Below, one piece after another: positions 3,470 to 56,150 of a stretch of 64,000 nucleotides of DNA. The translations under genes and the position numbers were made by a program. The stretch covers positions 558,001 through 622,000 of the forward strand of contig JAGPNK010000004.1 of NCBI GenBank assembly GCA_020746835.1. The letters are read 5' to 3'. The stretch comes from Stachybotrys elegans. Its lineage: Eukaryota; Ascomycota; Sordariomycetes; Hypocreales; Stachybotryaceae. Below the pieces are notes generated by a model that had not been told where the DNA came from, did not search any database, and saw nothing but the letters and a program-made list of their open reading frames with translations. Each line of letters starts with the position of its first letter. Position 1 is the first letter of the stretch.

Positions 3470-3816
3470 TGTTACGATGTAACAACCGTACAGGTCACAT
3501 GACAGGTCACGTGACCTGTGGAGAACCGAGGATCCACTGGACCAACCAGTCCGAAGTAAGTCCCAGTCCTAGATTAATAGTCCTGCTAAACAGCCAGTCC
3601 ATATAGTATATAGATAGGAGGATTCTATATTATATGCCTAGCTAGAAGCCTACTAACTATTAATACAACTTAGTTACCTTAACTACTATATACATTAAGT
3701 ATTCAACTATTACTAGATGTAATATATACTTAACGGTATATATACCCTGACTGCTTTACTAATAACTAACCCTAATACAATTAGACTTAGTTATAGTTAG
3801 GAACCTAACTGTTATA
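3470..3816 (+). repeat. 5' LTR of nested chromovirus
   Basis: 347-bp terminal repeat matching 11055-11403 and 12471-12819. It begins TGT and ends GTTATA (GTTACA before RIP, as seen in the third LTR). Compared with the other two copies it lacks 2 bp near its start. It is preceded by the target duplication AAAAC. Confidence 0.9.
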
Positions 3817-3827
3817 TGTTAATAGCT
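3817..3827 (+). other. Primer-binding site, probably self-priming
   Basis: The 11 bases directly after the 5' LTR, TGTTAATAGCT, are complementary to an 11-base site inside the LTR (11242-11252, AGCTATTAATA; 3655-3665 in LTR1), apart from one or two transition mismatches that RIP would explain. Tf1-type elements are known to prime reverse transcription with the first 11 bases of their own RNA; the position right at the LTR edge fits. This predicts transcription starting near 3655. Inference. Confidence 0.5.
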
Positions 3828-5714
3828 TTTGTTCAGACGGTTACTGTGTACCCTTGAGCAATACTCTTGAAAATGCATATGTTAGCTCGATTAACTAATA
3901 ATAAGATAGCTAACATACCCCCTAGTAACATGGAGCTCCAAGCTAAGATTTAAATGTTTAAAAACCACTTTAATAATATAGGCACTAGAGGAAGACTAAC
4001 CCAAGAAGACTAAAACAACATTGCAGCCATACAAGCCACAATCAATACACTTATACAGTAGAACAACACCTTGAACAAATAAAACAGGATTCTACTAGGA
4101 TATATTAATGTCTATAATCTCGCTACCAATACTGCCTATATTATGGCCAGTAAGGTAGCTATAACTAGAAGTAGATAAAGAGCCCACAAAGAAGGGTTTA
4201 TCCTTAAGATCAATAAACTAGATAAGTTTAACAGCAACCCTGCTAAAATCCAAGACTTCTTTAGATAACTCAAAATCTATTTTACCTACTTCCCAATAAC
4301 CCTTAGAACTAGTAAGGCCAAGATTAATTTCACTATCACTTGCCTAGAAGGAAATACTAAGAAAATATTTACTCTAGTCCTATAGGACTAATGCCTGTAC
4401 TTAGCGAAAGCTAAAGATAATAAAAACATACAGAAGGACAAGATAGTAGATACCTTTAAAAACTTTAGTGGGTTTAAGATATAGATTAAGAACTTATTTA
4501 GTATTATTAATAAAAAGCAATAAGCTACTGCTAAACTTAAGAGCCTCTATTAAACCAAGTTAGCTACCTTATATATCGTGAAAATTCACTAGCTAGGGTC
4601 AATTCTAGAGTGGGACAAAGAAGTTATTATTAACTTCATCTACATAAAGCTAAAAGATAAGATTAAGAACAAACTTGCTAAGATAGTAGAGCTACCAAAT
4701 ACTATAGCTAAATATACTACTATAGCCATCTAAATTAATAAATGTCTCTATTAATAAGACTAGGAAAAGAAACACATAACTAGTAATGGCAAAAAAACCA
4801 GCTATCCTACAAACCAGAGAAAGAAGCAATAAAAAGGATACTCCACTGTATACAGAATGCATACAGAAGCCATAAACACTAGCATTAGTGCTATACAGTA
4901 GAAAAACAACATTACCTACTACAACTATAGTAAAAAGGGCTACATTCAGAGAAACTATTTAGAGCCAACCCAAAATAAGTTCTAGATAGGAATACTTAAA
5001 AGAGAAGGATTTAGAGGAATAGATAAGAAAGAATACATATACTTTATACTATTCCCTAATAAAGGAAATACCAGTGTTAGGACTATAATATACACTGTGG
5101 CAGTTATTATATATAATGAAGAGGAGCTATAATTCCATAGACTTATAACCCTATTGGATTAGGATAACTATGAAGCTGTGTGGAAGGATAACTTTAACCC
5201 TACCAAATGGAACAAACTCTATAATAGAGAACTCAAACATAGATATACACCCAAGAAACATTTCAACAAGAAAGGACTCTACTAGAGACCAGAGAATTAG
5301 AAGTACTAGACACCTAAGCTTATCTTTATAGAAAAAAAGAACCCCCATACCTTAGTTAGATAGAGCCACTACAAAGATAATAACTATAAACTTCACAAAT
5401 ACAAAAAGTATTATTACTTTAGATATCATTATATACTATAACTATAAAACCAGTTTAAAGAAGCATAGTTAAATAACTTTAATCTAAATTAATAGACAGT
5501 TAGCTACATTTAGAATCCACACAAAGGATAACTCCAAGCAGATAAAGCCATTAAATGAGAACCTCTTAGATCCCCACAAGAGATTGTTAAAACCTACTGG
5601 AATTCTATAGACAATCTCTAAATACCACAAGACATCTAACAAGCATAGAAGGCCCTAGAAAAGCAAAATAAGAAGCAATAAGAGTGAAGACTTATACAAA
5701 ATACAATTATTGCC

Positions 5715-5981
5715 ATGATGTTACACAACCAGGACAGGAATCCCATTGACAATATCCCCGTGCAATCCCAACAAGCAAGCCAATTACAGCAAGTAAAACA
5801 ACTTATAAAAAGAACCCAAACGCATTGCCAGAATCAAGGGATTATATACCTATACCTTACTTACACTAAGTATAACATTACGGTAGGACTTAGGCTAGAT
5901 ATCTCAGAGAATAACATTATTAGCAACAAAAACCACAAACAGCCTATAGAGTTAATAGAGAAAAGAATCCAAAACACATAA
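5715..5981 (+). pseudogene. Remnant reading frame between gag and pol of the chromovirus
   Basis: An 88-codon open stretch survives by chance in the gag-pol junction region. It is Gln/Asn-rich and continues into stop-laden sequence on both sides. I read it as a leftover of the protease-containing start of pol, not as an independent gene. Confidence 0.4.
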
Positions 5982-8900
5982 TCTAACTAGAATAGTAAGA
6001 AAGTATAGAAGGCACTATAAAACTCACATAGTATATAGACACAACTAATACATTGTCTTAAAGAGGTAGAAACAGAGCAGGCCATTAAAGCACTTAACAG
6101 TGTTATTAGAGAATAAAACCCTAATAACAATAGATTCTATATTCATAGAGTAAAGATAGTCTAAGCTCTAGATAAATAGACAAGACAGGGATGGGCAGCA
6201 GGAGATATCCCTATTGCCTATAGAGATTACCTAGACCATGATAAGGTCTCTTGGATATTATGCTACATACACTTATGCAAGACATATAGCAAGAACAAAT
6301 TTAGAAATAACTGTTTCCCCACCAAGATTACAACCATCCCAGTACCTGGATACTACCTACATTAAGATCTCAAGAACTATTAGGTAATAAGGGAATGGTT
6401 GTATAACCTGTTTATCCTTAAATAAAAGGACAAGAAGTATAGTAGCCAGTATATAAGGGCACTAAACCATAATAACTATCTATATAAAGAATGCAAAATA
6501 CATATATAAGCCAAAGTCATAGACTAGCATAATACATTAAAAAACTAGAGACGCCCCCTAAGGCAGAACACTAGGACGCAAGGCATAAGGTCCTATACAT
6601 ATATAATAATAATAATAAAGAGTAAGAACTTATTATATAAGTATGGGTTAATAGACAATAGCTTATAGCATTTCTGGACTATAGAGTGTAAAAAAATTAC
6701 ATTAGCCCTAAGGCTGTAAACAGGCTTAAGCTACTATGGAAATCAATATAGGAAACCACCATTCAAGATACTAACAGAAACACCCTACTAGGAGAAGGCA
6801 TTATAGAAGAGATTAATTACCTCTATCTACAAGTTATAAACAGTGATATATACATACACGCCTATGTTAGGAAATTCCAAATGGCAGACATACTCTTAGA
6901 ATATAAATGGTTTAAAAAGCATAATCTATAGATTAACTGAGAAACTGGCTAGGTAGAATTGCTTAAGTGAACCATATCTAGCTATACTAAAGCAGACTTA
7001 GAAAGATCTTAACCTTCTACCAAATAACCAGAAGAAGGCAGGTAAAGAATAGAATTCTTACTACCCCTACAAGGGATAGCATATAAATAGATACAAGGGC
7101 AAAGGCAATGAGTAAATCACATTATATACTAAATAATATAATAGTTTAAAGAACTTAGCAAAGACCTTAAGAAAATAAAGCAGGGAGTAATAGAAAGGAA
7201 GGAAAGACTAAAGAATATACTAATACAGTACTATAAGTATAGGAAGCTCTTCAATAAGAAAGTTAAAGGAAGACTACCATAATACTCTGAATGGAACCAC
7301 AAGATTAACATTATTAATGGGAAGTAACCACACTCTAATAAACTATATACCCTTAATGTAAAACAGAAAGAAACACTTAAAAAGTACCTAGAATAGATAC
7401 TATATCAAGAAAAGATCCAAGTATCTAAATCATTAGCCAGATACCCAGTCATATTTATACCTAAAAAGGATAGAGAACTACAACTAGTTGTCAACTACCA
7501 ATAGCTTAACGCCATTACCATCAAGGATAGAATACCATTACCCCTAATAGAAGAAATAAGAGATAGACTATATGGCAAAACGATTTTCATTGCACTAGAC
7601 CTTACATTAGCCTACAATCAGATCTAAATAAAAGAAAGATACAAGTGGAAGATAGCATTTAAAACAAAGTATAGACTTTACAAGTACCTCACTATATTAC
7701 AAAGATTAACCAACACGCCTATAACATTCCAATGAATAATCACACACATTCTAAGGGAATACCTTAATATCTTTGTTATTTATTATCTTAATAATGTACT
7801 GATCTTCTTAAATAATAAAGAGAAGTATAAAAAGTATATACATAAGGTACTATAACTCCTTAAAGACACACAACTACTAGTCAACCCCTTTAAGAGTAAA
7901 TTCCACAAAAAGAAAGTAGCCTTCCTAGAATATATTATCTTATATAATAAGATCTAGATAAACCTAAAGAAGATTGTAGTAATTAAGGACTAAAAACCTC
8001 TAACAAATATTACAGAAGTATAATCCTTTGTTAGCCTAGCAAATTACTACTGACAGTTTATTAAGAACTTTAGGAAGATTACTACCTCTCTTATAAACAT
8101 TATATAAAAAGGACTTAAGTTCCAATAGATAGAGAAACAACAAGGAGCCTTTAAATAAATTAAGGATACTATTACTAGCAAACCTATACTAAGGACTTTT
8201 AACCCTGAATAAGAAATCAAACTTGAGATAGACTTATCTAACTTTATAAATAGAGTGCAAATCGGCTAGAGAGATAATAAAGGGAACCTACACCCTATTG
8301 CATTTTGGTTATACAAACTATATAGAGCGGAGCTCAACTACCTAACATATAACAAGGAATTTCTAGCAATAGTAGAAGCTCTTAGAGAATTCAAGTACTA
8401 CTACATAGGCAGCAAACACTAGATTAAGATTTTTATAGATTACAAGAATATCGCTTACTTTGCCACCACTTAAAAATTAAGCAAGTAATAACTTAGTTAT
8501 ATAGAGTACCTTGCCTAATTTAACTATATTATTATCTATTACAAGGGAATAGAGAACGGAAGAGTAGACACTATCAGTCAGAGACTAGATCTCAACGATA
8601 AACAGCCTATCATTAATAAATAACTCCTGGAAAAGACTCTAGAAGAACACTTATAACAGACCAGAGTTACAAAGATAGGAAACACACAACTAAAGGAACA
8701 ATACCTTAAGATAATCTAGAGGATTATTATAGGGTGGTATTTTAGGGATTTTAAAGAACAAAACACTATTACAAGGACTAAATAGGCTACACACAGAGAG
8801 AAGGTCTACTTACTAGATAAAGTGGAACATAAGATCATTAATAACTACTATATTGCCAACCATTATAACCCTAACAAAATAATAACATAGGTCAAATAGC

Positions 8901-13230: not shown

Positions 13231-16200
13231 AGATATCTATAAGGTAGAATAATAGTAAATATATTTTTAATATTAATAGTTACTATTTATAGTATATAAG
13301 GGATTTAAAAACCCTTTTTAATAAAAGTAAGTATTTTTAAGAGCTAATTTTAAAGGTAATATATTAAAGTAAAGTATAGTTACTTACTAATTAGTAGTTT
13401 AATAATTTAGAGAGAATTATTAAAATAGATTAAAGTACTAAATATATTAAATTAGAATATATAGATAATAAAGAGAAAAATAAATAAGAAATAAAACATT
13501 AAGTTATACTATTATATTTATCTTTAGCTAGAAGTATACTATAGTATAAAAGGTAAGTTTTAAAAAAGAAAGAAATCTCTTTATAAAGGGTTTTTATAAT
13601 AATAGTAATTATATCCTTTATTCCCTTATACTAAAGAAAAACACTTACTATCTTTAATATAGTTTAGTTACTTTAAAATTAAATAGTTTAGTAAGCTATA
13701 AATATATATTCTAATAGGATTCCCTTTACTAGGTTATTAATATTAGTAATTAAACCTTAATACTATATTTATATCTAGGGTTTCTTTAAGTAAATTAGAC
13801 TTTATTATAGTCTAGGTTATTATTATAGTTACTATTATTTAAACTATTTAATCTACTTATACCTAGAATACTCCTTTAAGCTAGAGTTATAAAGGCCTAG
13901 ATATTCTTTAGTATATATTCTTAGCTATTATTAATTACTTTTTTATAGTAAGTATTAGTTATAAAGAGTTTATTATTATAGTTTAATTTCTATTATTTAT
14001 TTTTATTCTTTATAAAAGCCTTTAATTTATTTTTATAAAAGATTTCTTTAATAGGTATTTTATTTAGGTTTATAAGCTTATATAAGCTAACTATTTATAC
14101 TTAGCTTTAAATATAGTATAGCCCATTCTATCTTTAAGCTATCTTTATAATAGTAAATAAATTATTTACTTTTTTAATATTATAAACTAAAACTAAATCA
14201 TTTAGTTTTAATAGTACTTTTCTAATCTTTATTATATTATAGTTATTTATCTAGCTAGCTATTCTTTTCTAGAACTTAGTAACTTTATTCTTTATATACT
14301 ATATATTATTTTTCTTTCTTTTTAAAATCTAGATTTTAGCTTTAAAAAGTGTTTTTTATAATATTACTTTATTTTAGTTAATTAAATACTATATAGAATA
14401 CTTAACTTTTAATAAATAAATTAACTTCTATTTATATATTAAGTAAAATAGAGACTAACTATAAAATAACTATAGAAAGACTCTATCTATAAATATAGCT
14501 AAGTTTAATTATTTAATCTAATTAGCCTTTATTTAAGCTAGCTTAATAATAGCTATAATAAGTAATTAATACCTAGCCTTTATAATACTATTAGCTTTAG
14601 AATTATAGACTAAAATAGTAATAATCTATATTCTAACTTATTTTAAAACCCTAGAAAAGTCTTTTTTAAATTTTAGCCTTTTATTAATAACTACTATCAT
14701 AATTATTTTATAATAAAAGATTAGTTATTTTATAAAGGTAGCTATTAATTTAGCTAAAATCTTTTATATTAGTATTATCTCTATTTATTTAGTAAGATTA
14801 TAATATACTTTATAAAGAAACTTAAATCTAAAGTAAAGCAGTATATATTATATATTAAAATAGACCTTTATTATAGATAGTCCTAGTTTAATTAATACTA
14901 TTTCTTCTATAGATCTCTATAGTATAAACTTCTAGTATTCTAAATATATTTTTAAAAACTAATAAAGATCTTTATATATAGATTTCTAATAGTATTAGGT
15001 TTATAAGCCTTTAAAATAGTAGTAAGGCAATAGTATTTAAGTTAGTAGTATATTATAACTATTAAATCCCTTTAAATAGCTAGGTTATTTATAACTAACT
15101 TAGGGTTTCTATTAGATTTTAAGGTTTTTTAAAAAGCTATTTATTTCTAAAAATATATTATTTAGTATTTATTCTTAGTTTTTAAAAACTAACTCTATTT
15201 AATCCTTTAGATCTTTTTAAAGTCTCTAGATACTATACTATAGCTCTAGATTTCTAAAAGTATTTATCTTTTAAAATATTATTAATTAAAAGTATATTAA
15301 GTTTTAATTAATAAAGTCCTTAATATTCCCTTTAATAATTTAATTATAAACATTTAAAAAGTAAATAGCTTTTTAAATAAACTATTTACTACCCTATTTA
15401 TCTTTCTAAATATATACTATACTATAAAGTTAAAGAGTAAAATATAGCTAATCTATCTAATAACTAAAGTTATTAAAATATCTTTATATACTTTATTAAT
15501 CTAACTAATTAAGACTTAGATATTTATTTCTAATATAAACTATACTCTATAAAAAAAGTTTTATATCTATTTAAATATATATAGTATAGCTTTATACTCT
15601 CTCTTAGTAGTATTATATTTTATTTCTAAACTAGCTATATATTACTTTTAAATTAGACTAAATATCTCTTCTCTTTTAGAATCTATATTAGGTAAATACT
15701 CTATCTCTTTAATAAAGTATTTACTATTAAAATAATCTTACTATAGTCTTCTCTAAGGTTTAAAATAATTAAAATAAACACTATTATTATTATTTTCTTA
15801 AGAATATCTATTATAGTTTATTAAGCCTTACTTATATTTATTTAGTTTCTTTTTTTAAAAGATCTATTAATAGCTTAGCTATTAGTATAAAGCCTCTAAT
15901 TTAAATATAATAGAATCTAACTAATTTAATAAAGAACTAAATATCCTTTAAATAGTAGTATTTAAGCTATTTTAAATCTTTATAACTTTAGTTTTATTTA
16001 ACTTTTATCTATAGATTTTATAAAGAAAGTTAATAATAATAATAAACCTTTAGTAAAACTTTAACTTAAATCTAAAGATTATATAACTAAATAGCTTAAT
16101 ATTAATAAATACTCTATTTAAATTAATTAAATATTTTAATATAAAATAGTAAACTCTAGATATCTCTTTAATATTATTATATATTAAAGTTAATTCCTTT

Positions 16201-19200
16201 ATTAAGATATTATTTAAAAGGGTTATAAATCTCTAGTATTAAATTAAATAGTATTTTACTTATTATTATTAGAACTAAACTATTAAGTTTATAGTCCCTT
16301 AAAGCAAAATAGTATATTATAATAGTTTAATAAATATATTAAATATTATTATATTTTACTTTTAATAGTTAATAGAATCTAATTATATTTTAAAAAAAAG
16401 TCTACTATTAATAAATAGTATATATTATAAAATCTTAACTAAACTCTTTTACCTTTAGTACTATATCTATATCTCTAATTATTACTTATTATAATATATT
16501 ACTAAATTAATTAATTAAATCTATTATTTTTCTTTTAAACTAAAAACTAAAGGTTTCTATAAAGTCTATAGCTTTCTTTAATAACTTTAGTCTATTTTTT
16601 ATTTAAAAAGATTAATAGCTTTAGACTTTAGTATAGCTAGTATAGATATAAAGCTAGATTACTAAGTATTATAAAAGACTATCTTAATAATCTAAAGTAA
16701 TATAACTTTTAAATCTAGCTTTTTATATTTTAAGAATTTTATATAATAATAGCTTCTTTATTTAGAAAAATTTAAATAAAAATATCTTTCTTTTATAGTT
16801 ATAATATAATAACTTTATTAAAGATCTAATTTTATTTAGCTTAATTTAATTAAAAACCCTTTTTTTAAATTAAAAATCTTAAAGTAATATACTTATAGTA
16901 TAGTATATTTTTCTAAAGTAAGCCTTATACCTTAGCTTACTTTCTCTCTTTTTATCTAAGGTTTTTATTAAATATTAATCTATTTAATAAAGTATTATTT
17001 ATTAAATTAATCTTTTAACTTTTAGATTTATATATAATATTAATCTAAATAAATAATTTACTATTACTAATTTAATAAAATATTTCTCTAAGTAATTTAT
17101 TTAATTTTAATTTTTATATAGTTTTTTTTATTACTATTACTTTCTCTCTTTTTATTTTTCTTTAGTTTTTTAAAAGCTTTTTATAAGTATTAAAGGTAAT
17201 TAGCTTAATAATTACTTTAGCTACTTTATTATTAATATTTAGAATAACTCTTTTATTAAAACTTAAATTAAGTATTATTTAGTTATTTTTCTCTCTTTTA
17301 TTTTCTTTATTTTTTATTCTTTTATTTTCTTTTATAAATTATAAATAGTATTTTATAATAGAATCTTTTAATCTATTTATTCTAACTATAGCTATATATA
17401 TATTAAGTTTCTTTTAAATCTAAATTATATTTATAATAATAAAGTATTATTCTAGAGAACTTTTTCTTAATAAGATAAAAGCTAGTATCTTTACTATAGA
17501 TAAAATAATAAAGATAGTTTCTACTTAAATCCTAATATAAAGGTTTTTAATACTTATATTATAGTTAAAGAATAGCTAGTAAACTTAAATAAAAAATATC
17601 TCTAGAATAATATTATTTATAACTAAAAATAAAGCTATCTAAAATAGAACTTCTAAACTAATAGCTTTTATAAAAACTTTTATTTTAATTTCTCTATTTA
17701 TTAAAACTATATTATTTAAGTAAAACTTTAATAATACTAGCTTTTTAAAAGGCTTTAAGTTTAGTTAGTTACTAAACTTTCTTAATATTATATTACCTTA
17801 GCTTTCTAAATTAATTAAGGCTATATAAAGCTAGCTATCTTTAATAAATCTAATATAAAGGTATAAATAGTCTTAAATAAACTATATCTATACTATATTA
17901 GTCTATCTTTTAGTTTAAACTACTTAGAGTTTAATAAAGCTAATATTAAATACTATAGATATAATATTTTTAAGCTTATCTAGAAAATTATTTATAGTTA
18001 AAAGCCTATTATACTATTTAATCTTAATAATATTAATATATTTTATTAAACTATTTAATTTTATTATATTAGTTTTAATCTCTTTATTCTATTATATAAC
18101 TTTTATTCCTTAGAATTATATTATATAGAAGTCTCTAACTAATTATATAAGGTTAAATTAGAGATTAAATAGCTCTCTATATATAATATTTATCTTTTTA
18201 TTAAAGAAACCTTTTTAAAGGCTTTTTATAATTCTTATAATATAAATATTCTTAGTATTTTTTATACTTTTTAAAGTAGTTTTATTTATTAAATAGTATA
18301 AAAATATATTTATAGTAGTAAACTAAGTCTAAGATATTATAGAAATAAAATTAGAGTTATAAGTTTTATAATATTATTTTATAAAGTATTTAAATAAAGC
18401 TATATTAATAGTTTTACTATTTACTAAATTATAGACTAATTAATCTCTTTATATATTTATTTTAAAGAGTATTATAGAAATTATAAAGACTTTTATATTC
18501 TAGTTATACTTTAGTAATTTAAAGTTATTTATTTTTTTAAATCTTTAAAATCTATTAAAAGTATCTTTTTTATTTTAACTAAACTTTACCTTTTAGAATT
18601 TTCCTTTTTTATAAATAAATTTACTAATTAAATAGTTTAATATACTTTTCTTTTAGCTATTAAAAAATAAATAAATTAGTTTTTAAATATAACTTTTAAG
18701 TTAAATAAATCTATTAACTAAGCTTAGTAATATAAAAAAATTATTTAGTATTTCTATTTAAAGAACTTTTATTATCTAGCTATACTTTATAATTAATATT
18801 TCTTTATTACTTTTAGTAAAAAAATAATTATTTAAATAATACTTTAGCTCTTTAATAAAATTATAGTAGTAATATTTATATCTTTTTATAAAGTTATTTA
18901 TATTAACTTTAAGTATTCTTTTTAAATTTTAGTATATAATAGTATTTATATAAATTTATTATTATATAATTATATTCTAAATAGTTCTTTTAAACTAGCT
19001 CTATAGGTTTTTTTATAACTTAATACTTTAGTTTTTATTATATTAAATTAACTCTATTTATATTTTATTAAATTTTTCTATAAGGTTATTTATATTAGTA
19101 TTCTTAAGTTTTTTACTATTAGTCTAGAGGGCTACTTTTATAAATTATATCTTTAAAGTCTTTCTTTTAAAGATTATTTTATAAAGAGATTTTATAAATA

Positions 19201-19940
19201 TATTATTAAAAGAGAATATTTAATTTAAATATTAAAAGTAATTAGTAAACTATATATTCTTATTAATATACTTTAGTAAATTAGTCTTTAAAATACTACT
19301 TTAATATAGATTATACTTTAAGTCTATATTTATTTTAAAAGCCTTTTATACTTTACTATATTTTTATTATATAAATTTAAAAAAAAAATTATTTTCTTTT
19401 ATTATTTCTTTCTTTAGTTTATTAAATATATAATTAATAAGCTATTTAATAAACTATTAAGAGTTTTTCTATTTATTTAAGTTTAATCTTTTTACTAAAG
19501 TTTAATACTATATTAAAAATTTATTTAAATCTTTAATAGTTATTAGTTTTTTCTATATTATTTAATCTAGTTAAACTTAGATATTCTTTAGAATCTTATT
19601 ATTTTAAGTTTAAAATCTCTTTTTTAAAGTATTCTTTATTTAGTTTTAATTTCTCTAGTATTTTACTTTATTTATTATTAATTACTTTACTTTTAAACTA
19701 TAGTAGTCTTTTAGTTATTATAGCTTTATTTCTAAACTTAATCTATAGCTCTTTACCTTAGTATTAAATATAGTTAAAAACTTTAAAATATTTTAGTTTA
19801 TAAAGATAAATTTTTTTTAATTAAGTTATAACTCTATAGAAATTCTAGTAGTTTTTTATAAAATCTTATTTAAAAGTCTAACTATAACTATTTACTTACT
19901 TTCTATTTTTAAATTATTACTTTTCTCTTTATTAAAAATA
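13230..19940. repeat. Extremely AT-rich RIP-degenerated repeat block
   Basis: About 6.7 kb with almost no CpG and little C or G apart from CTA/TAG contexts, and no reading frame of useful length in any frame. This base bias is the known end state of RIP on duplicated DNA. I could not assign the ancestral element. The block ends abruptly at 19941, where normal base composition begins at the Starship edge; matching AT-rich DNA resumes at 54592, so the two tracts were probably continuous before the insertion. Confidence 0.85.
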
Positions 19941-19946
19941 GTAATC

Positions 19947-19961
19947 GCGGAAGCGCTGCTG
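19947..19961 (+). repeat. Left terminal inverted repeat of the Starship (3' end)
   Basis: GCGGAAGCGCTGCTG, perfect inverted match to 54552-54566. A second inverted match, AATTATTACTTTT, lies just outside (19912-19924 versus 54579-54591), so the repeat may extend further with gaps. Confidence 0.75.
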
Positions 19962-20043
19962 CCACCACCGGTTTAGCGGCATCGCCTGTTCGGGCAAGGT
20001 GCGCTTGCCGCTTTGTCGCCCGTGCCCATCACGTGACCCTCCG

Positions 20044-26539: not shown

Positions 26540-26945
26540 CCATAAAGGCTCCCACGACAGCGAAGACCTCCAAGATAACGAAGACCTCCACGACTACGAA
26601 GGCTTCCACGACAACGAAGACTCCCCGCGACAACGAAGTGTCCCCGCGACAACGAAGTGTCCCCGCGACAACGAAGACTCCCATAATAACAAAAGTCTTC
26701 GTAATAACGAAGATACCCACGACAGCGAAGACCTCCAAGATAACGAAGGCTCCCGCGACAGCGAAGCCTCCCCACGACAGCGAAGACCTCCAAGATAACG
26801 AAGGCTCCCGCGACAGCGAAGCCTCCCCGCGACAGCGAAGCCTCCCCGCGACAGCGAAGCCTCCCCGCGACAGCGAAGCCTCCCCGCGACAGCGAAGGGC
26901 CTCCGCGACAACGAAGACGCACACGACAGCGAAGGCCTCCATGAT
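26540..26945. repeat. Minisatellite, 18-19-bp unit (GCGACAGCGAAGCCTCCCC)
   Basis: Roughly twenty degenerate copies of a unit with core GACAGCGAAG plus a CCTCC segment; the copies at about 26815-26895 are nearly perfect 19-mers. Long open frames on both strands here (up to 220 codons) are products of the repeat and not evidence for a gene. Confidence 0.85.
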
Positions 26946-27036
26946 AACAAAGGTTCCTGAAACGGCAAACGGCCTCCCGACCGAGAATTACCCCACAATA
27001 GCGACGGCCTCGAGCAGTCTTAGCTCTTCTGACCAA

Positions 27037-30088: not shown

Positions 30089-30585
30089 GCATCAACTCAG
30101 CGGGAATTTTGGCTTTTTTATTCCTTTCAGGGGCCTCAATTGATCTCACCCAGGATGGCCGAGGGTACACAGCAGGCCGCATGAAAAGCGGCCGGGCCTG
30201 GAGATGGAGAAGGCAAGGCAAGACGCACTACAAACTCCATTAACCACTAGACTATCTAAGGTCGTTCTCCTGTAGTATCTTCCATTCTCAAATGGAGATA
30301 GTAATGGGTCCTGGCCTTTGTCAAAAAGCATAGTTACTAGATTAGAACAAACCCCACTCTTCGTTTCACTCCAGATGTCCAATGGATAACCCTAGATCGT
30401 TATCAGCCCCATCAAAGTGCCCAAGTGCCAAAGTGCCCAGGTGCTCAAGTGCCCAAGTGCCTAAATGTCAACACCATATGCATTGGTGCCTTGTAGCCTA
30501 AGGTGCGAAAGATTGAGTGACACCTGGGGAAGCCAGGCATCATCTCAGAGGTGCATGTCTCCCCTAACTCTCTTTCCTCGCCACC
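30089..30585. other. Intergenic with short minisatellite
   Basis: The stretch 30415-30466 holds about five copies of a 10-11-bp unit, AAGTGCCCAA-like, the same unit found at 33224-33357. Nothing else recognised. Confidence 0.6.
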
Positions 30586-33223: not shown

Positions 33224-33357
33224 CTCAAGTGCCAAGGTGCCGAAGTGTCAAAGTGCCAAAATGCCCAAGTGCCCAAGTGCCCAGGTGCCCAGGTGCCAAA
33301 GTGTCAAAGTGCCAAAGTGTCAAGGTGCCAAAGTGCCAAAGTGCCAAAGTGCCAAAA
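33224..33357. repeat. Minisatellite, 8-11-bp unit (AAGTGCCAAAGTGCC)
   Basis: About thirteen imperfect copies of GTGCCAAA/GTGCCCAA in tandem. The same unit occurs at 30415-30466. Three short forward frames (60-107 codons) through it, rich in Lys, Cys, Pro and Gln, are artefacts of the repeat. Confidence 0.85.
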
Positions 33358-40262: not shown

Positions 40263-40415
40263 GAGCTAGCTCCAAGTCGCCAAAAGAATAGGATAGTGAG
40301 CTTTAAGCTTAGAACTTCGGAGCTAGCTCAATTTGCAGGGGACCCGAGCCGCAAGGACAACGCAGAGTTGGTTAGAAAGGAGTAGAGCTAGCTCGAATTT
40401 AGGGGCGGTTTGGGT

Positions 40416-40606
40416 TCTGGGACAGAATAGGTTCTAGGACAAGAGTAGGTTCTGGGACGAGAGCCAGTTCTGGGACGAGAGTGGGTTCTGGGACGAGAGT
40501 AGGTTCCAGGACAAGAGAAGGTTCTGGGACGAGAGCCAGTTCTGGGACGAGAGTGGGTTCTGGGACGAGAGCCAGTTCTGGGACAAGAGTAGGTTCTGGG
40601 ACCAAA
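40416..40606. repeat. 18-bp minisatellite (GGTTCTGGGACGAGAGTA)
   Basis: About ten tandem copies with small changes (AG or GG at the start, GAGAGCC or GAGAGTA at the end). The minus-strand frame of 68 codons repeating VPEPTL is produced by the repeat. Confidence 0.85.
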
Positions 40607-46125: not shown

Positions 46126-49100
46126 ATGTCGGATCCCAACGACTACACAGTCGGGTGGATATGCGCAATAGATACCGAATACGTCGCTGCACAGGAGTTC
46201 CTCGACGAGGAACACCCACGCTTGGCTTCACAAGATCCAAATGATAACAACATCTATACGCTCGGCCGGGTTGGACAGCATAATGTCGTCATCGCATGCC
46301 TGCCTCACTGGAACTATGGCCTTGTTAGCGCAGCAAATGTTGCTAGCGACATGCTGCGGACTTTCACAAATGTGAGGTTTGGATTGATGGTCGGTGTCGG
46401 CGGTGGGGTCCCGACGAAGCAAGATATTCGTCTTGGCGATGTTGTGGTTAGTTCGCTTGATTATGCGAACGGCGCCGTATACCAGTACGACTTTGGCCAG
46501 ACTGTTCAGGACAAGGCATTCCGAGCGACTGGCCACTTGGATGCCCCACCGCTATTGCTTCAGGCGGCCGTACAGGACTTGAAAACCACGTACCGAAGGC
46601 ATGGGAATCAGATCGACAAGGCTATCGCGGCTGTTTTGGAGAGGAACCCACGACTAGAAGAAGAGTATCGAAGACCAGACCCCATCACCGACAGACTCTA
46701 CAAAAATACATTCACTCATGCTGGGCCGTCTCATCAGAGTTGTACTTCAGTCTGTGGTGATGACGAGTCAACCCTCATCATTCGGGATGCACGGCAAAAG
46801 TACGACGATAATCCCAAAGTGCATTACGGACTCATCGCTTCATCAAACCAACTCATGAAGGATGCTCTTGTACGAGACCGCTTAGCTGAAGAGAAGGGCG
46901 TGTTATGTTTTGAGATGGAGGCCGCAGGGCTTATGAACCATTTCAAATGTCTTGTCATCCGAGGTATATGCGACTACTCGGACTCGCACAAGAACGAGGC
47001 CTGGAAGGGGTATGCGGCGATGGCGGCAGCTGCGTATGCGAAAGACCTTCTTGGTCGAATAGCTCCCAGTAGGGTTGAGGCCGAGGAGAAGATCCGTGTT
47101 CTATCACGTAATCCCATCGTTTCGATTCATCCTGTTAACACATGCTAATCCCATGTACAGGTATCTATGAAGTTGTAGAAAAAGCCCAAGACATTGCAAA
47201 GCAGGGGCTCCAAACTCAGATAGATTTCGCCAGGGAGAGGATGTCCGAAAAAGAAAACATGTGTCTCCAGCTATTCTTCCTCACAACTGACGGCAAGGAC
47301 GCCACATATGAGTCGTATAAGGACCGAGTGGAAGAACGAGTTGACGGCACGTGCATGTGGTTCCTCGAGCACGAGAACTTCCAGAAGTGGTTGAAACAGG
47401 AGTCCGGCCCCCTGCTAGTCTCGGCGGATCCTGGCTGTGGGAAGTCGGTGTTGGCCAAGTACCTGATCGACCATTACCTACCGCGGTCGGCGACCATCTG
47501 CTACTACTTCTTCAAAGACCAAGACCAGAACACCGTCCGGCAAGCGCTTTGCGCACTGCTCCACCAACTCCTCACTAAGAAACCGTCTCTGATTGAGCAT
47601 GCCATATCACAGTACGATAAGAAGGGCAAAGGCTTGATCAACTCTACAAAATCACTCTGGGAGGTGCTACAGATTGCTGTAAAAGATCCCCAGGCAGGGC
47701 CTATAATCATTGTCCTCGATGCCCTGGACGAATGCGCCCAATCAGAGTTTGAGGACCTGATACGGAATATAGAGCGCCAATTCCCCAGCGACCATTTCGA
47801 CCATGGCAAGTTGAAGTATATTCTAACGTGCCGCCCGTATGACCAGATCGTGTCCGAGTTCAGCAACTTGTTGCACAGTTTCCCGAATATCCGTATACCA
47901 GGAGAGGAAGAGTCAGAAACGATCAGTCAGGAGGTGAATCACGTCATTACATGCCGGATTAATCAGCTTTCCACGACGAAGCGCCTCAATTCTGATATCA
48001 AGAGCCACCTAGAAAAACGTCTACAGGAAACCAGCCACCGCACCTATCTCTGGGTACACCTTGTGTTTGACTACTTGGAGGGGGTAGACTTTAAAAAGAC
48101 ATTAAAGGGGCTGGAGTCTACCATGACAACACTTCCCAAGAGTGTCAATGAGGCATATGAGAAAATTCTTAACAAATCCAACGATAAGGAACGTCGAATG
48201 GTCCGGAAAGTCTTGAGTGTTATTTTGGCCGCGAGTCGGCCGCTGACACTCTCAGAAATGAACGTTGCTGTGAACATAGAAGACACGTCAGAATCTTTTC
48301 GCGACCTCGACTTGGAGGATGAAGAGGACTTCGAGAGGCGTCTCAGATCTTGGTGTGGATTGTTCGTCTTGATACATCATCGCAGGGTTTATTTCCTCCA
48401 TCAAACAGCTCGTGAGTTTCTCCTTGCGGATTTGGCATCGCCCACAACTGTTTCGCCAGAGCTGCACTGGCATCACTCCATCACTGCCCAAGACGCACAC
48501 GCCGTTCTCGCGGAGCTCTGCGTGCGCTATCTGAACTTCTTCAACTCCGACACCACCCTGCCCACAGATGCGAATGGGGCAGCCGGCCACCCTGTCGATG
48601 GCCACGCCTTCCTAGATTACTCCGCCAAGAATTGGGGTGCTCACTTCCGCGAGGCCAGTATCATCGATGACGCGGCCATTGTACCTCCCACTACGAAAAT
48701 CTGCAATCCGGATTCAAAGAGCTATTCAACTTGGTTTACGATCTACTGGGAAATGACACACACCAAGTGTTTTACGGATCTTATGGTAGCATCGCATTTT
48801 GGTCTCAACGCCGTAGTCAAGCAGCTGCTCGAGAACGGCGCCGAGCTCGAGGCGAAAGATGAAACTGGTCGGACGCCGCTCGTAGAGGCAATTGAAGGAC
48901 AGCACGTAGCGATTGTGAAGCGGTTGCTTGAGACGGGCGCTAAGGTGGACTACCATTATCAGCGAGTGAGTGAATCCGACCAACACAGAATGGGTGACAA
49001 TGAAGATGATGGCTGACATTGGGATGCCTGGCTGGTGTAGTATGTAAGTGAATCCGACCGACGCAGAACGGATGACAACGAAGATGGTGGCTGACATTAG

Positions 49101-50688
49101 GATGCTTGGGCTGGTATAGGAAGTAAGTGAATCCAAGCAACGCAGAATGGATAACAACGAAGATGATGGCTGACATTGGGATGCTTGACTGATGTAGCGA
49201 GTAAGTGAATCCAAGCAACGCAGAGTGGATAACCACGAAGATGATGGCTGACATTAGGATGCTTGGGCTGGTGTAGTGGGTAAGTGAATCCGACCAACAC
49301 AGAATGGGTGACAATGAAGATGATAGCTGACATTGGGATGCCTGGCTGGTGTAGCGAGTAAGTGAATCCGACCGACGCAGAATGGGTGACAACAAAGATG
49401 ATAGCTGACATTAGGATGCTTGGCTGGTATAGCCTGTAAGTGAACCTGACCGACGCAGAACGGATGATGATAAAGGTGATGGCTGACATTAGAATGCTTG
49501 GGCTGGTATAGCCTGTAAGTGAACCTGACCGACGCAGAATTGGTGACAATGAAGATGATAGCTGACATTGGGATGCTTGGCTGGTGTAGGAAGTAAGTGA
49601 ATCCGACCGACGCAGAATGGATGACAACGAAGATGATAGCTGACATTGGGATGCATGGCTGGTGTAGGAAGTAAGTGAATCCGACCGACGCAGAATGGAT
49701 GACAACGAAGATGATAGCTGACATTAGGATGCTTGACTGATGTAGCGAGTAAGTGAATCCGACCGACGCAGAATGGGTGACAACAAAGATGATAGCTGAC
49801 ATTAGGATGCTTGGCTGGTATAGCCTGTAAGTGAACCTGACCGACGCAGAATGGATGACAACAAAGATGATAGCTGACATTAGGATGCTTGGCTGGTGTA
49901 GTTTGTAAGTGAATCCGACTGACGCAGAATGGATGATGATAAAGGTGATGGCTGACATTAGGATGCTTGGCTGGTGTAGTATGTAAGTGAATCCGACCGA
50001 CGCAGAACGGATGACAACGAAGATGGTGGCTGACATTAGGATGCTTGGGCTGGTATAGGAAGTAAGTGAATCCAAGCAACGCAGAATGGATAACAACGAA
50101 GATGATAGCTGACATTGGGATGCTTGGGCTGGTATAGTCTGTAAGTGAATCCGACCGACGCAGAATGGGTGACAACGAAGATGATGGCTGACATTAGGAT
50201 GCTTGGCTGATGTAGCGAGTAAGTGAATCCGACTGACGCAGAACGGATGATGATAAAGGTGATGGCTGACATTGGGATGCTTGGCTGGTGTAGTTTGTAA
50301 GTGAATCCGACTGACGCAGAACGGATGATGATAAAGGTGATGGCTGACATTAGGATGCTTGGCTGGTGTAGTATGTAAGTGAAAGCTGCTACAGAAGATT
50401 TTAACTCGTCATTAATGGAATATTCAGACCCCTTTATCACGAGCCGCGGAGAAGGGAGATGAAAAGATTGTTGAGCTTCTGCTTAAACACAATGCTCAAC
50501 CATACTTGAAAGACAAATCTGGCCTAACTCCGCTAGCACGGGCCAAAAGGCAGGGGAATGTGGCGGTTGCAAACCGCTTGGAGAAAGAACTGACGGTCAC
50601 AAGCCGCCTGAAGAAGGTTCTCTACGAGATGATCGCTCTTGCAGCGCACGCGCGGCTACAGAGAGTACACAGGGCTCGCAAAGTTTGA
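46126..50688 (+). CDS. NLR-type receptor: PNP-NACHT-ankyrin with a tandem intron/microexon array
   Basis: Exon 1 (46126-47095) encodes a nucleoside-phosphorylase-like domain (GWICAIDTEY at the start, GVGGGVP, CFEMEAAGL, IRGICDYSD), which in fungal NLRs acts as the N-terminal effector. A 65-bp intron leads to exon 2 (47161-48965): NACHT domain with Walker A DPGCGKSVLA (about residue 412) and Walker B IIIVLDALDEC (about 505), winged-helix region, and ankyrin repeats from about residue 862 (FGLNAVVKQLLENG, TGRTPLVEAI). The coding sequence resumes at 50428 with TPLSRAAEKGDEKIVELLL and one more repeat, ending at 50688. Between them lie 18 intron units with 3-bp spacers and one final 53-bp intron. 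The product is 1011 aa if all spacers are skipped, 1029 aa if all are kept. Fungal NLRs govern non-self recognition and heterokaryon incompatibility. Confidence 0.88.
48966..50427 (+). repeat. Array of 18 tandem introns separated by single-codon microexons, plus a final 53-bp intron
   Basis: Unit starts (donor G): 48966, 49044, 49123, 49201, 49280, 49358, 49436, 49515, 49593, 49671, 49749, 49827, 49905, 49983, 50062, 50141, 50219, 50297; final intron 50375-50427. Each unit body is 75 or 76 bp, begins GTAAGTGAA (GTGAGTGAA in the first), contains GCTGACATT as branch site about 24 nt before the end, and finishes in TAG. Exactly three bases follow before the next donor. In order these codons encode Y,E,R,W,R,P,P,E,E,R,P,F,Y,E,S,R,F,Y. 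All are phase 0, as is the junction at 48965/50428. Retention of any unit meets a stop (the TGA of GCTGAC). The alternative is one 1462-bp intron holding a minisatellite. Confidence 0.8.
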
Positions 50689-51504: not shown

Positions 51505-54183
51505 CTAGTAGAGCTTACTCGTAATCATTCGTCGGCTTCTTGCTTTCCTCTCCCTCCTCTGTTTGATTTGCTCCGACGACCGCAGAGTTACACCATGGAC
51601 CCTGTACACATGGGACCGGAACTCATCAAGAGATTCCAGTTTGAGATTCCGACACTTGGGATGCTCACATCGGATCTTTTTACCGCTCTGCTCAGCCTGC
51701 TCGCGCCCCACCAGATGCTGCCTGTCGAAGTGGTCGTTCATGACGGTAGGCCGGCAATATATAAAGGTACGCTCCTGTGAAGAAAGCCGTTCGTCGCCAA
51801 TACAGTCTGGGCATTGTGCCCCATGCATAAGAAGAGGGAAGGGATCAGGGTCGAGACTCTTGTCCGGCTCTGCTGGCTCGGTCTTGATCGGTGCGCTAGC
51901 CGTGACTTTGCGTTGAATCCGATCGCGCTTTGCCGTCTCTCTCATGTCACAGAGCGCGACCATCAGGTCGATAACCTGGATCCTCCGTTGCAGGATGGCG
52001 TCCTCAGTAAGATCGTCAGGTTGGTGGCAAACGATCTCCGCCAACTGTGCTCGCTCCGGGATGGAGACATTGATAGTAGGCTCGATGTACTCCTCCTCTT
52101 CCTCGCCGCGCGCCTGTCTTTCAATATCCCAGGTGGGACGGTTATAGAAGTAATGCTCGCGGTATTCCTTGACCACCTGCCGGCTGCGCTGGGCGCGTTT
52201 AGTGCGAATCTCATTGGTAAGCTTCCGGATCCTTTCCTCTGCCTCGTGCCCCTCGATTCGATAGCGGCCCTGCTTTAGCCGGGCTCGCTCCTGCTCAAGC
52301 TCGACAATCTCAGGGTCCGGCGCGAGATTAGCCCACACCTCCTCAGGTACCATGTCCGCTGTCGCCCGAGGATCGCGTGTGAGACTGACATGTGCAAAGA
52401 GTCGGAAAAGCTGACTTTCCTTCTCTGCTTCTAGGAAAGCATTCTGCATATCGAAATTGGCAATCTCGTTCAGGTATGCGTGATGAAATGTAGCAAACTG
52501 AGGGTCGTGGCGCATCATTTGGTCACGCACGGGGTCCGGTGCGTCTCCTAAACCAGGGCAGGTCAGCATGCCATTGCAAACTACGAAAGTCGGCCTCCTG
52601 TCTGGACGTGGGAAGGCTGGGCGCGGTACATACCGTTCGCGGCATTTGAGGCGCCACGTCTAGCGAATCTAGGAGTCCATTTCTTTTCGTGTCCTGAATC
52701 AAGACTTTGCTGACCCATATCATCTCTGAGCTTAGAGTAAAGCATAGCCTCAACGCCCGAAAGCGTTGTCCCTCGATATCGACGGAAAACAGGGGTTTTT
52801 AGCATAGACTTCTTCCATCGAAGCGGAATGCATTGCTGGAAGCGTGGCGGTTGTATACTGAATATTGCTGATGCATCTATCAAGCTCGGCGCATCGAATG
52901 CTTTGTCGTGTAGAGCGAGCGAGAGCATTGTCGAGAGGGCGCAGAATATAATTCTCCTTGTCGGAGAGAAAAAGAAAATCGTCCTGTTTGGATAGAGGTT
53001 AGTTAGAGGCTTCAACTCCAACTTCAAGCGAGAGTAACATACGGCTTGGGCTTGTTGTCTGCTCCCTTGTGATGGATGAACTTGATGGCCATCGCTGGGA
53101 CGCAACGCCCAGTGACGGGGTGCCGCACAATCATCATCAGTATATCCTCGTAACAGAGAGCCTTTGGTCGCCCACGCCCTACGGTCTCCTGAGAAAGGAG
53201 GCCTTCAAGCAGTTGAGAGTCTTTGTCAAGAGCTACCTCTTGGTTCTCGCCTTTATCTTCACCATCGTCTGAAGCGGCTGAGGGGGCCTCAACCACCTTT
53301 CGACCGAAAAGATGTTCGGTCGATCCGTCTTTCGGCTTCTTCCGTTCGCCGTCCACAAGCTCAGCTGGTCGTGCTCCAGTATAACAAAGAAGTTGATAGC
53401 AGCAGTTCAGCTGTATGCGGTGTCGCTCGCCGGGGAAGACTATAGTATCGTATGCGAGATTGAAGGTCAAGATAACAAGCAAATTATCCACGTTCAGTAC
53501 CGGCTTTCCGTCGGTGTTTGGAGGGCGATGACCGAAACGAGGGAGAAGAACACATCGGTAATACTATATCACGTCAATCACTTGCATTTGAAACAGCCTG
53601 TAAGCCATGTATAGGACTCGAAGTGTCTACAAACCTTGTATACCTCTTTAGTATCATTCCGATCCATGTACTGACCAGTCACGGTAGTATACAGCTGCTG
53701 GAACTGCCGAATGTACTCTTCACAAGTGGCCCATGATTTAATCTTCGAATTTTCGCAAATGTAAAGGATAAAGTCCTGTGTCGTCTCCCGCTTCAAGCTC
53801 TTGATGGTCAACTTCCAATCACCAACCTGCAGGTCCTCGCAATATCTACCGAGTTATCAGAATAGGTCAGCACTCTGCACCTCGGGAAAGAGCCGAATTG
53901 CTTTGCATAGTCCCCGACGCATATGCACTCACCGCTGCCATTTCCTAAAGATCCCGCTGACATTGATCTCCGTTTCCTGGGAGTATTTCGACTTAAAGAA
54001 GCTAACCTTGCTCAACTGTGCACGATGAGAGGCATGTTGTTCAACCGAGAGCGTTGGTTTCTGCTTGGCAGCTCGATTCTCTGCTTCTCGTGCTGCAAAG
54101 CGTTGAAGGAAGGCGGTGTGGCTTTCCTGGATGAGGGTGGCGGTCGCTCGTTGGGTGCGCGAGGAAACGATGGCGTGGGACAT
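51505..54183 (-). CDS. Starship captain: DUF3435 tyrosine recombinase (802 aa)
   Basis: Five exons: 53933-54183, 53635-53845, 53043-53563, 52634-52983 and 51505-52580. The introns (87, 71, 59, 59-type and 53 bp) all have GT/AG ends, and the total is exactly 803 codons. The N-terminal helical part is followed by the DUF3435 core: CYTGARPAELVDGE with box-I Arg near 219, RPKALCYEDI, HHKGADNKPKPTIFFF, PVFRRYRG, FARRGASNAAN (Arg near 437), RHDP (His near 469) and FHHAYLNEI with the probable nucleophile Tyr near 480. The C-terminus has a coiled-coil region and a C2H2-like zinc finger (CEHPKCRN...HVYRVH). Captains are known to cut and join Starship DNA. It lies about 400 bp inside the right edge and reads inward. 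No break is visible, so it may be active. Confidence 0.88.
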
Positions 54184-54551
54184 CGTCTAGCGTGGGTATT
54201 TGAAGCCACGAATGGTCAGTTGGAAATAGAGAGAGGAGCTAAAGGGCACACGGAATGGAGGCCAGTTCGGCCTTTTAAGGGTGGAGGCCATGCCGAGTAG
54301 CCAACCCTCAACAGCCACTTTTGATGTTGAATAAACGCAAAGCAGAAGATGGAAGACAAGAAAAGGAACCAGGGGGACGAAAACTGGTCCCTGGAAATAT
54401 GGGTCTCATGCACGCTGTGCCCCTCCATGGAGCACGTGCCCAGGCGGCTGGGAGAAGTATATAGTACTTGCCCCGCGACCTCTCCCGCTGGATTTCCCCC
54501 ACTGCTTGAGCCTGCTAAAATGGCGGCACTTTCCGCCAGATTTGGCAGGCT
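54184..54551. promoter_or_regulatory. Captain promoter and subterminal region
   Basis: Between the captain start and the right inverted repeat. It contains GCCATTTTAGCAGG/CCTGCCAAATCTGGCGG-like short repeats next to the terminus (about 54510-54550), which could be subterminal binding sites. No gene seen. Confidence 0.45.
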
Positions 54552-54566
54552 CAGCAGCGCTTCCGC
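54552..54566 (-). repeat. Right terminal inverted repeat of the Starship (5' end)
   Basis: CAGCAGCGCTTCCGC, the exact reverse complement of 19947-19961. Just outside, the minus strand reads TTACATATTAAA, fitting TTAC(N7)A. Confidence 0.75.
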
Positions 54567-54591
54567 TATTTAATATGTAAAAGTAATAATT

Positions 54592-56150
54592 CTAGACTAA
54601 ATAGTAATAATTATTATATTTACTAGATTTTATTTAATAAATATATTTAAAACTTAAAAATTAAATAAAGTACTAGTTACTATACTTTTTTATTATTAAT
54701 ATTTAGATTTTATATTATTAGTTTTACTTTATATTTATTTATTTTATATTAAAAAGCTAGGTTCTTTTATAAAAAAAAATATAAAGATAATTAGTAAAAG
54801 AAAGAGTATTTAAATAAATATATAGTACTATAGAATATTATAATATATAAATAAGTATTAAAAAAATAATAAAAAATAATTAATAATAATATTAATATTA
54901 AAATACTTTAAAAATAACTAATATAATATTTTTTATATTAATTATAATATTTTTATTAATATAATTTATATATTAATATATAAATAACTATTTATAATAA
55001 TCTAGTTATAAGCTATATAATCTTTATTACTAATAGTAAAGTTTCTATATTATTATAATAGTATTAAATTAAATCTTTTATTACTTTAGTTTATATATTC
55101 TAGACTAATAGTTTAAATTTAATAGTTAGTACTAAGTTTTACTTTACTTTACTATTAACTTTAAATATTATAAACTTTTAGTATTAAAATTAAATAAATC
55201 TTAGTATTTTAATATAGTAAATATAATAGTTAGATTATATTTTCTTTTATTAAATATATTTTATTTAATATATTTATATTTTAAAATAATTAATCTTTTT
55301 ATTATATTATAAAGTATTTATAGTCTTTAGTTTTTATATAACTAAAAGGTATTATATTTATTATCTTTAAAGTAATAGTAAATATATTTTATTTCTACTA
55401 TAATCTTTAATTAAAATAAAAGAAAATATAATACTATTTATAAAATAGTTAGTAATATAAATAGTAGTTTATAATTAAACTAAACTAATTAATTTAAAAG
55501 CTAGTATATTATATAATTTTAGAAAAGTTATATAAAAAGAGAAAAAAGTATAGTATTTTTAGATTCCTAAAACCAATCTACTTATATAGATTTAAACAGC
55601 CTGGCTAGAGCTCTTTATAGTAACTTAGGCTAAATTTCCCTATTTTAATAGTATTAGTATTAGAGGCCCTAATAGCTATACTATTAGCTATAGAGTGGCT
55701 ATTTAGTTAAAAGGGGGTGGCCATTTAGTTAGGGGCGTTAGATAACTACTACAAGCCCCACTTTTTGCATTTAGCAGCGCTAGGCACTAAATTAGGCACC
55801 TGAAGCTACTAAAGTTATATACTACTTATGCCTTGCGCTAGCTGGCATAAAAAAAGCCACTGGAAGCCTTAGAAGTATCCCTAAAAGTATTGCTTATATT
55901 TCTATTAAGCTACTAGAGGTATAGACCAAACGCTAAGGATTTGACTAATTAAAATTAAGTGTATTACTGTTAAGAAGACTTAAGCTAAGACCTCTATTAA
56001 GCATTGGTAAGTTATGATATAAGTAAATTTAGAGAGTATCTCTATTGATTTATGCTATATACTAGCTGCTATATACAGCTATCTAGCTATAGCTATATAC
56101 AGCCACTGTGGTACATGGCGAAATGATCTTCTGATCCATTGTACTTTTTG
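54592..56150. repeat. AT-rich RIP-degenerated DNA flanking the Starship
   Basis: The first kilobase is as AT-rich as 13230-19940 and without coding frames; from about 55570 the sequence becomes less extreme and includes a repeated GGCYATTTAGTTA segment (about 55688-55735), likely a different old repeat. No family assigned. Confidence 0.75.

Follow-up and report, generated by a model that had tools for sequence, protein, structure and literature searches.

Fungal NOD-like receptors (NLRs) include genes with highly conserved repeats, near-identical to one another, varying in number and carrying few hypervariable positions; they are recognized by protein repeats that are >85% identical over at least 100 residues. 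The hypervariable, positively selected positions of their ankyrin repeats lie mainly in the inner helices and the beta-hairpin/loop region, which has been called the binding interface (PMC4986451). Introner-like elements of fungi are near-identical short spliceosomal introns, present in hundreds of copies in unrelated genes; in Zymoseptoria tritici, within-gene tandem duplication makes up <1% of single intron gains (PMC4457414). Stwintrons also place several introns at one position of a fungal gene, nested so that a splice signal is interrupted (PMC8469720, PMC9024468, PMC12403724). Exons no longer than 3 bases are within reach of splicing, and the three-base and one-base examples from Drosophila homothorax (PMC7392893) and Arabidopsis (PMC4674806) are single and conserved. 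Schistosome micro-exon genes encode fast-evolving proteins of the host interface from many short in-frame exons (PMC4350168). Here, we describe a receptor gene of Stachybotrys elegans that lies in a 64,000-nucleotide stretch of contig JAGPNK010000004.1 (assembly GCA_020746835.1, positions 558,001 to 622,000, forward strand; hereafter the window) and contains 18 near-identical introns in tandem, set apart by one codon each. We consider it likely that each of these introns is spliced separately and that the codons, which form a hypervariable stretch laid out one codon at a time between the introns, are thereby joined into one contiguous loop.

The host is a PNP_UDP–NACHT–ankyrin gene, with the three domain types of fungal PNP_UDP/NACHT/ANK NLRs in one protein (Pfam matches to PNP_UDP_1, NPHP3_N, DUF7069, a winged helix and Ank). 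The array extends over positions 48966–50374 of the window on the plus strand, with units starting at 48966, 49044, 49123 and so on to 50297 (n = 18). The intron part measures 75 bp in 13 units and 76 bp in five and is followed by exactly 3 bp and then by the next GTRAGT; a unit thus has the form GTRAGTGAA...GCTGACATT...TAG plus three bases, with GTAAGT directly after. Tandem Repeats Finder reports a period of 78, 18.1 copies and 87% matches, and blocks of units are identical, for example units 2 and 14 or 6 and 11. The first one-codon exon, TAT (49041–49043), is followed by GAA CGA TGG CGA CCT CCT GAA GAA CGA CCT TTT TAT GAA TCT CGA TTT TAT, the last of these at 50372–50374, and the 18 codons read YERWRPPEERPFYESRFY. 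The preliminary description, which had recognized 18 near-identical introns with single-codon spacers in an NLR-type gene, is borne out in these respects. It placed the end of the array at 50427. The array itself ends at 50374, and positions 50375–50427 are an ordinary 53 bp intron (GTAAGTGAAAGC...TTCAG) that is not a unit and has only GTAAGTGAA in common with the units, so that the span 48966–50427 holds 18 array units plus one unlike intron, or 19 introns.

Both flanking exons are in phase 0. The exon before the array (47161–48965) ends ...GAKVDYHYQR and the exon after it (50428–50688) starts TPLSRAAEKGD; they join in frame with or without the triplets, in agreement with the ankyrin junction and the absence of a frameshift claimed earlier. 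Searching the 43.4 Mb genome on both strands for GTRAGT-N(55-85)-AG-NNN-GTRAGT gave 50 matches, 24 of which are array units. Since the same pattern written backwards gave 62 matches genome-wide, the other 26 are not above chance. The array is far from chance. A search with the unit itself led to 24 places, namely the 18 in the window and six on a second contig, C6. All 24 units match GTRAGT...CTRAY...YAG+NNN, with TAG acceptors, and no stop codon occurs among the 24 triplets, which upholds the claim that each unit has a full intron signature and a sense codon at its boundary. If retained, every one of the 24 would bring an in-frame stop into the message, at codon 17, where it overlaps the branch site, or earlier at codon 6.

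The six units on C6 (locus L025) carry the triplets CGA ATT GAT CGA CGA TAT between the same exon 2 end and the same exon 3, and their last codon is also the last codon of the array in the window. The terminal 53 bp intron is identical at both loci (53/53). A search with the ankyrin part retrieved the deposited protein of this locus, P0121, which reads ...GAKVDYHFEV-RIDRRY-TPLSR.... A scripted join of exon 2, the six triplets and exon 3 reproduces P0121 at 151 of 151 residues. P0121 thus matches the product expected when every one of the six one-codon exons (RIDRRY) is included, as a deposited model rather than as RNA, and the annotators' model already holds six consecutive 3-base exons. This model may come from a study of 41 root-fungus genomes, a link that we presume. 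The genomes in that study were annotated with Trinity transcripts and the Joint Genome Institute (JGI) pipeline, and Stachybotrys is not named in its main text (PMC8664821).

We aligned the 24 units of both arrays over 75 intron columns and three codon sites. Nucleotide diversity is 0.70, 0.74 and 0.56 at the codon sites, and the most diverse of the 75 intron columns reaches 0.507. On a tree built from the introns only, the codon sites take 11, 11 and 8 inferred changes, and the intron columns average 0.92 and never exceed 5; in total, 30 changes fall at three codon sites against 66 at the 61 intron columns outside the splice signals, counted over units that are not independent. Minor alleles comprise 31 transitions and four transversions in the introns and two and six, respectively, in the codons. 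The 27 unit pairs with 3–5 intron differences (75 sites) differ by 0.06 per site in their introns and by 0.77 in their codons, and units W_1 and W_5 of the window, which differ at two intron sites, carry TAT and CGA. Three of the seven closest pairs (0–2 intron differences) have equal codons, as expected when whole units duplicate. There are nine distinct triplets, each for a different amino acid.

The divergence between the two loci provides a neutral measure. It amounts to 0/53 in the terminal intron, with a synonymous divergence (dS) of 0.12 over 180 bp of exon 2 and 0 over 150 bp of exon 3. This is about the intron divergence within an array, which points to near-neutral change in the introns and accelerated change in the codons. 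The alignment indicates that hypervariability is confined to the one codon per unit, and we read the site counts as a strong contrast and not as exact probabilities. Codon hypervariability, the second array and the separate nature of the last intron go beyond the preliminary description.

An AlphaFold2 model of P0121, made with 18 sequences, has a mean predicted local distance difference test score (pLDDT) of 92.2 and a predicted template modelling score (pTM) of 0.85. RIDRRY (residues 80–85) falls on both strands, 77–80 and 83–85, of the hairpin between ankyrin helices; prediction places the codons at the tip of an ankyrin beta-hairpin finger, the face that usually binds. A homologue search gave 7678 proteins at E <= 0.001, the best 120 of which were used; the best is P0001, the deposited S. 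elegans protein. Without the triplets, eight residues separate GA from TPL at the ankyrin junction of the array. Comparable GA–TPL junctions in homologues P0003–P0120 (n = 462) have 10 or 11 residues in 431 cases and eight or fewer in three, so removal of the array as one intron would leave the hairpin about two residues short.

Among 211 proteins, long variable inserts occur at the same hairpin site in P0051, P0081 (Talaromyces pinophilus), P0126 and P0129, the last reading GAKVNYNYSI-RCASQFPYSPTTRR-TPLSR; P0051 has such inserts at three places. In Trichoderma harzianum P0176 the hairpin is of normal length (DYHYEIIFQTPL). A hypervariable finger may be more widespread in this receptor subfamily. 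We also observed that the inserts of P0051, P0081, P0126 and P0129 are rich in aromatic residues and arginine.

If the introns are spliced separately, the spliceosome would remove all 18 one by one and join 18 codons in frame. Fungi splice strong short introns of this kind by intron definition. A donor that skipped to a later acceptor would give a shorter loop with no frameshift, and a retained unit would introduce an in-frame stop, such that unspliced RNA should be discarded. Diversifying selection would act on the codons, as their contrast with the introns suggests and as is established for fungal NLR repeats at their hairpin and inner-helix positions. The near-identical introns would in turn supply homology for unequal exchange, by which the loop could grow or shrink by whole units. 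Joining of any donor to any later acceptor keeps the frame, and retention of a unit leads to a stop; on this basis the array could also act as a splicing diversity generator. In that case splicing in subsets would yield up to 2^18 ordered sets of loop codons per gene, with many receptor variants in each nucleus or cell of a mycelium, and unit duplication and codon turnover would renew the repertoire between generations. We regard this extension as doubtful. Of the earlier proposal that the units are spliced singly or in combinations, separate introns are favoured by the six codons of P0121 and by codon sites that behave unlike intron sites, whereas the only hint of combinations is the deposited model of P0001.

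Several points weigh against separate splicing. Splicing is read here from DNA and deposited protein models rather than from RNA reads. The P0001 model lacks the 18 codons; it joins position 48965 to a CGA triplet, which precedes unit 6 or unit 11 (these are identical), and stops inside that unit, although this skip-and-stop model may be an annotation artefact. The six 3-nucleotide exons of P0121 might have been placed by a gene finder without transcripts, and the C6 gene, 5'-truncated and ending about 20 residues short, may be no more than a fragment. The missing stop triplets are weak evidence for coding, with a shuffling probability of none of 0.021 for the 24 triplets and of 0.46 for the nine distinct ones. 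The units are related and recombining; site counts are thus not independent and binomial values overstate the certainty. Finally, P0002 of S. chartarum seems to hold a diverged unit, ELISKFNQHSTDDNVDDGRH, that reads past the branch-site stop, and the array there may have decayed.

A rival reading takes 48966–50427 as a single long intron with an inner minisatellite, its signals copied from a former intron and no codon reaching the mRNA. Tandem duplication of an intron by itself would give such an array, and the P0001 model does not splice all units. A dead minisatellite leaves unexplained, however, why hypervariability is limited to a stretch of exactly 3 bp between TAG and GTRAGT. It also gives no reason for the slower change of the inner splice signals, whose 14 columns took three changes while the remaining 61 intron columns took 66 (binomial 5e-4, subject to the overstatement just described). 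P0121 carries the six codons of the sister array, and the codon-free hairpin would be about two residues short. We judge a single long intron distinctly improbable. Separate splicing could instead be coupled to neutrality: the codons would vary as part of a tolerant surface loop, and the array would be a by-product of intron duplication, with introns alike through recent expansion. Ankyrin hairpin tips do tolerate inserts, and the homologues with long inserts are examples, but the non-signal intron columns, which should then be as neutral as the codons, change about nine times less per site (66/61 against 30/3), and do so by transitions. This explanation seems to us unlikely.

Two further possibilities are very improbable. 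The length, strong signals and near-identity of the units resemble introner-like elements, and a dispersed family of these could have inserted here in tandem. No unit was found outside the two arrays in the 43 Mb genome, neither by a 75-base BLAST-type search (24 places) nor by 31-base and 25-base patterns allowing three mismatches (19 and 22 places), searches by DNA query and pattern that could miss diverged copies. As far as these reach, the unit is not a dispersed introner family, and it is on dispersal that the comparison with introners raised in the preliminary description fails. Equally hard to credit is a repetitive protein encoded on the minus strand. Open frames of up to 384 amino acids run through the array in antisense, but an extra base in five of the 18 units shifts the frame, the polymorphic intron columns are spread as 13, 10 and 9 over the three codon positions with no coding pattern, and several of the antisense frames are open simultaneously, which reflects composition. 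Serial insertion with a 3 bp target duplication was also considered and rejected; by reasoning it would leave equal triplets, and nine different ones occur.

Sequences at the array site of related proteins bear on the age of the unit. S. chartarum P0002 ends in ...VDYHYELISKFNQHSTDDNVDDGRH, similar to what translation through a diverged unit would give (unit 1 has VSESDQHRMGDNEDDG); at this site VSEFD is present in T. harzianum P0179 and VSKFN in the metagenome protein P0146. From such apparent read-through in the three proteins, the first unit is probably older than S. elegans and its expansion younger. In P0179, the ending MDYHYEIVSEFDYWDVSEFD looks like read-through of an intron start at the array site; the protein end EIVSEFDYWDVSEFD resembles read-through of GTAAGTRAATTC intron starts, and the start occurs twice. 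The end of P0146, RYRIVSKFNRF..., appears similarly like a GTAAGTRAATTC intron start read through at the array site.

In the remainder of the host gene, exon 1 (46126–47107, plus strand) encodes the PNP_UDP_1 domain and is followed by an ordinary 53 bp phase 1 intron (47108–47160; GTAATC...GCTAAT...ACAG), whose in-frame join agrees with P0001. Exon 2 encodes the NACHT-type NTPase NPHP3_N, DUF7069, the winged helix and the first ankyrin repeats; exons 1 and 2 together reproduce P0001. Exon 3 encodes the last ankyrin repeats and the stop codon. The two non-array introns of the gene are 53 bp each.

Just downstream of the receptor gene, two separate pieces of DUF3435 (PF11917) lie at 51508–53563 on the minus strand. 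We take DUF3435 to be the Starship-type recombinase family, and the receptor gene may lie near or inside a Starship-type element. The C6 paralogue borders on a PIF1-type helicase frame of the opposite strand; at 3476–5599 (minus) and 5561–6581 (plus) of L025 the cut-off paralogue and the PIF1-like frame overlap, as though a Helitron-type or similar element had been joined on. Other tandem repeats of the window are found at 26551–26952, 30415–30461, 33227–33356 and 40411–40602 (19/36/55 bp; 8 bp AAGTGCCC and AAGTGCCA; 18/36/72 bp). Stretches at 14001–20000 (15–17% GC) and 54001–56000 (28% GC) are very AT-rich compared with about 50% GC in most of 20–64 kb, a composition to be expected from repeat-induced point mutation.

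Should the codons be joined by splicing, it is the introns that form the repeat and allow a protein loop to expand and vary. Duplication of a near-identical intron would then change the length of the loop by whole residues, with one fast-changing codon per intron, and an immune-type receptor would thereby acquire hypervariability by a new route. Splicing would at the same time be tested to an extreme, with 20 introns in a single gene, 18 of them around 3-base exons, in a case that ordinary annotation and spliced aligners would miss. The array bears on why introns multiply and on how fungal non-self receptors diversify.

We found no tandem intron array with one-codon exons in the open-licence PubMed Central literature, seen mostly as listings and not as full texts. 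The array is without precedent in the literature searched and has annotation-level confirmation in the sister locus. It shares with introner-like elements the near-identity of short spliceosomal introns and intron signals in each copy (24/24), but its copies were found in tandem, at two loci within a single gene family and not in unrelated genes. As in stwintrons, several introns occupy one position; here they are complete, with donor, branch motif and acceptor uninterrupted in each of the 24 units and a codon between neighbours. The putative exons resemble the three-base and one-base examples in size, but are arrayed and hypervariable where those are single and conserved. Schistosome micro-exon genes likewise have many short in-frame exons, but these are several codons long and their introns are unlike, with no near-identical introns bearing one codon each. 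The closest relatives by gene type remain the NLRs with highly conserved repeats, which also combine near-identical repeats of varying number with few hypervariable positions. There the repeat is protein-coding, whereas here it is intronic over about 96% of the unit, with one codon left.

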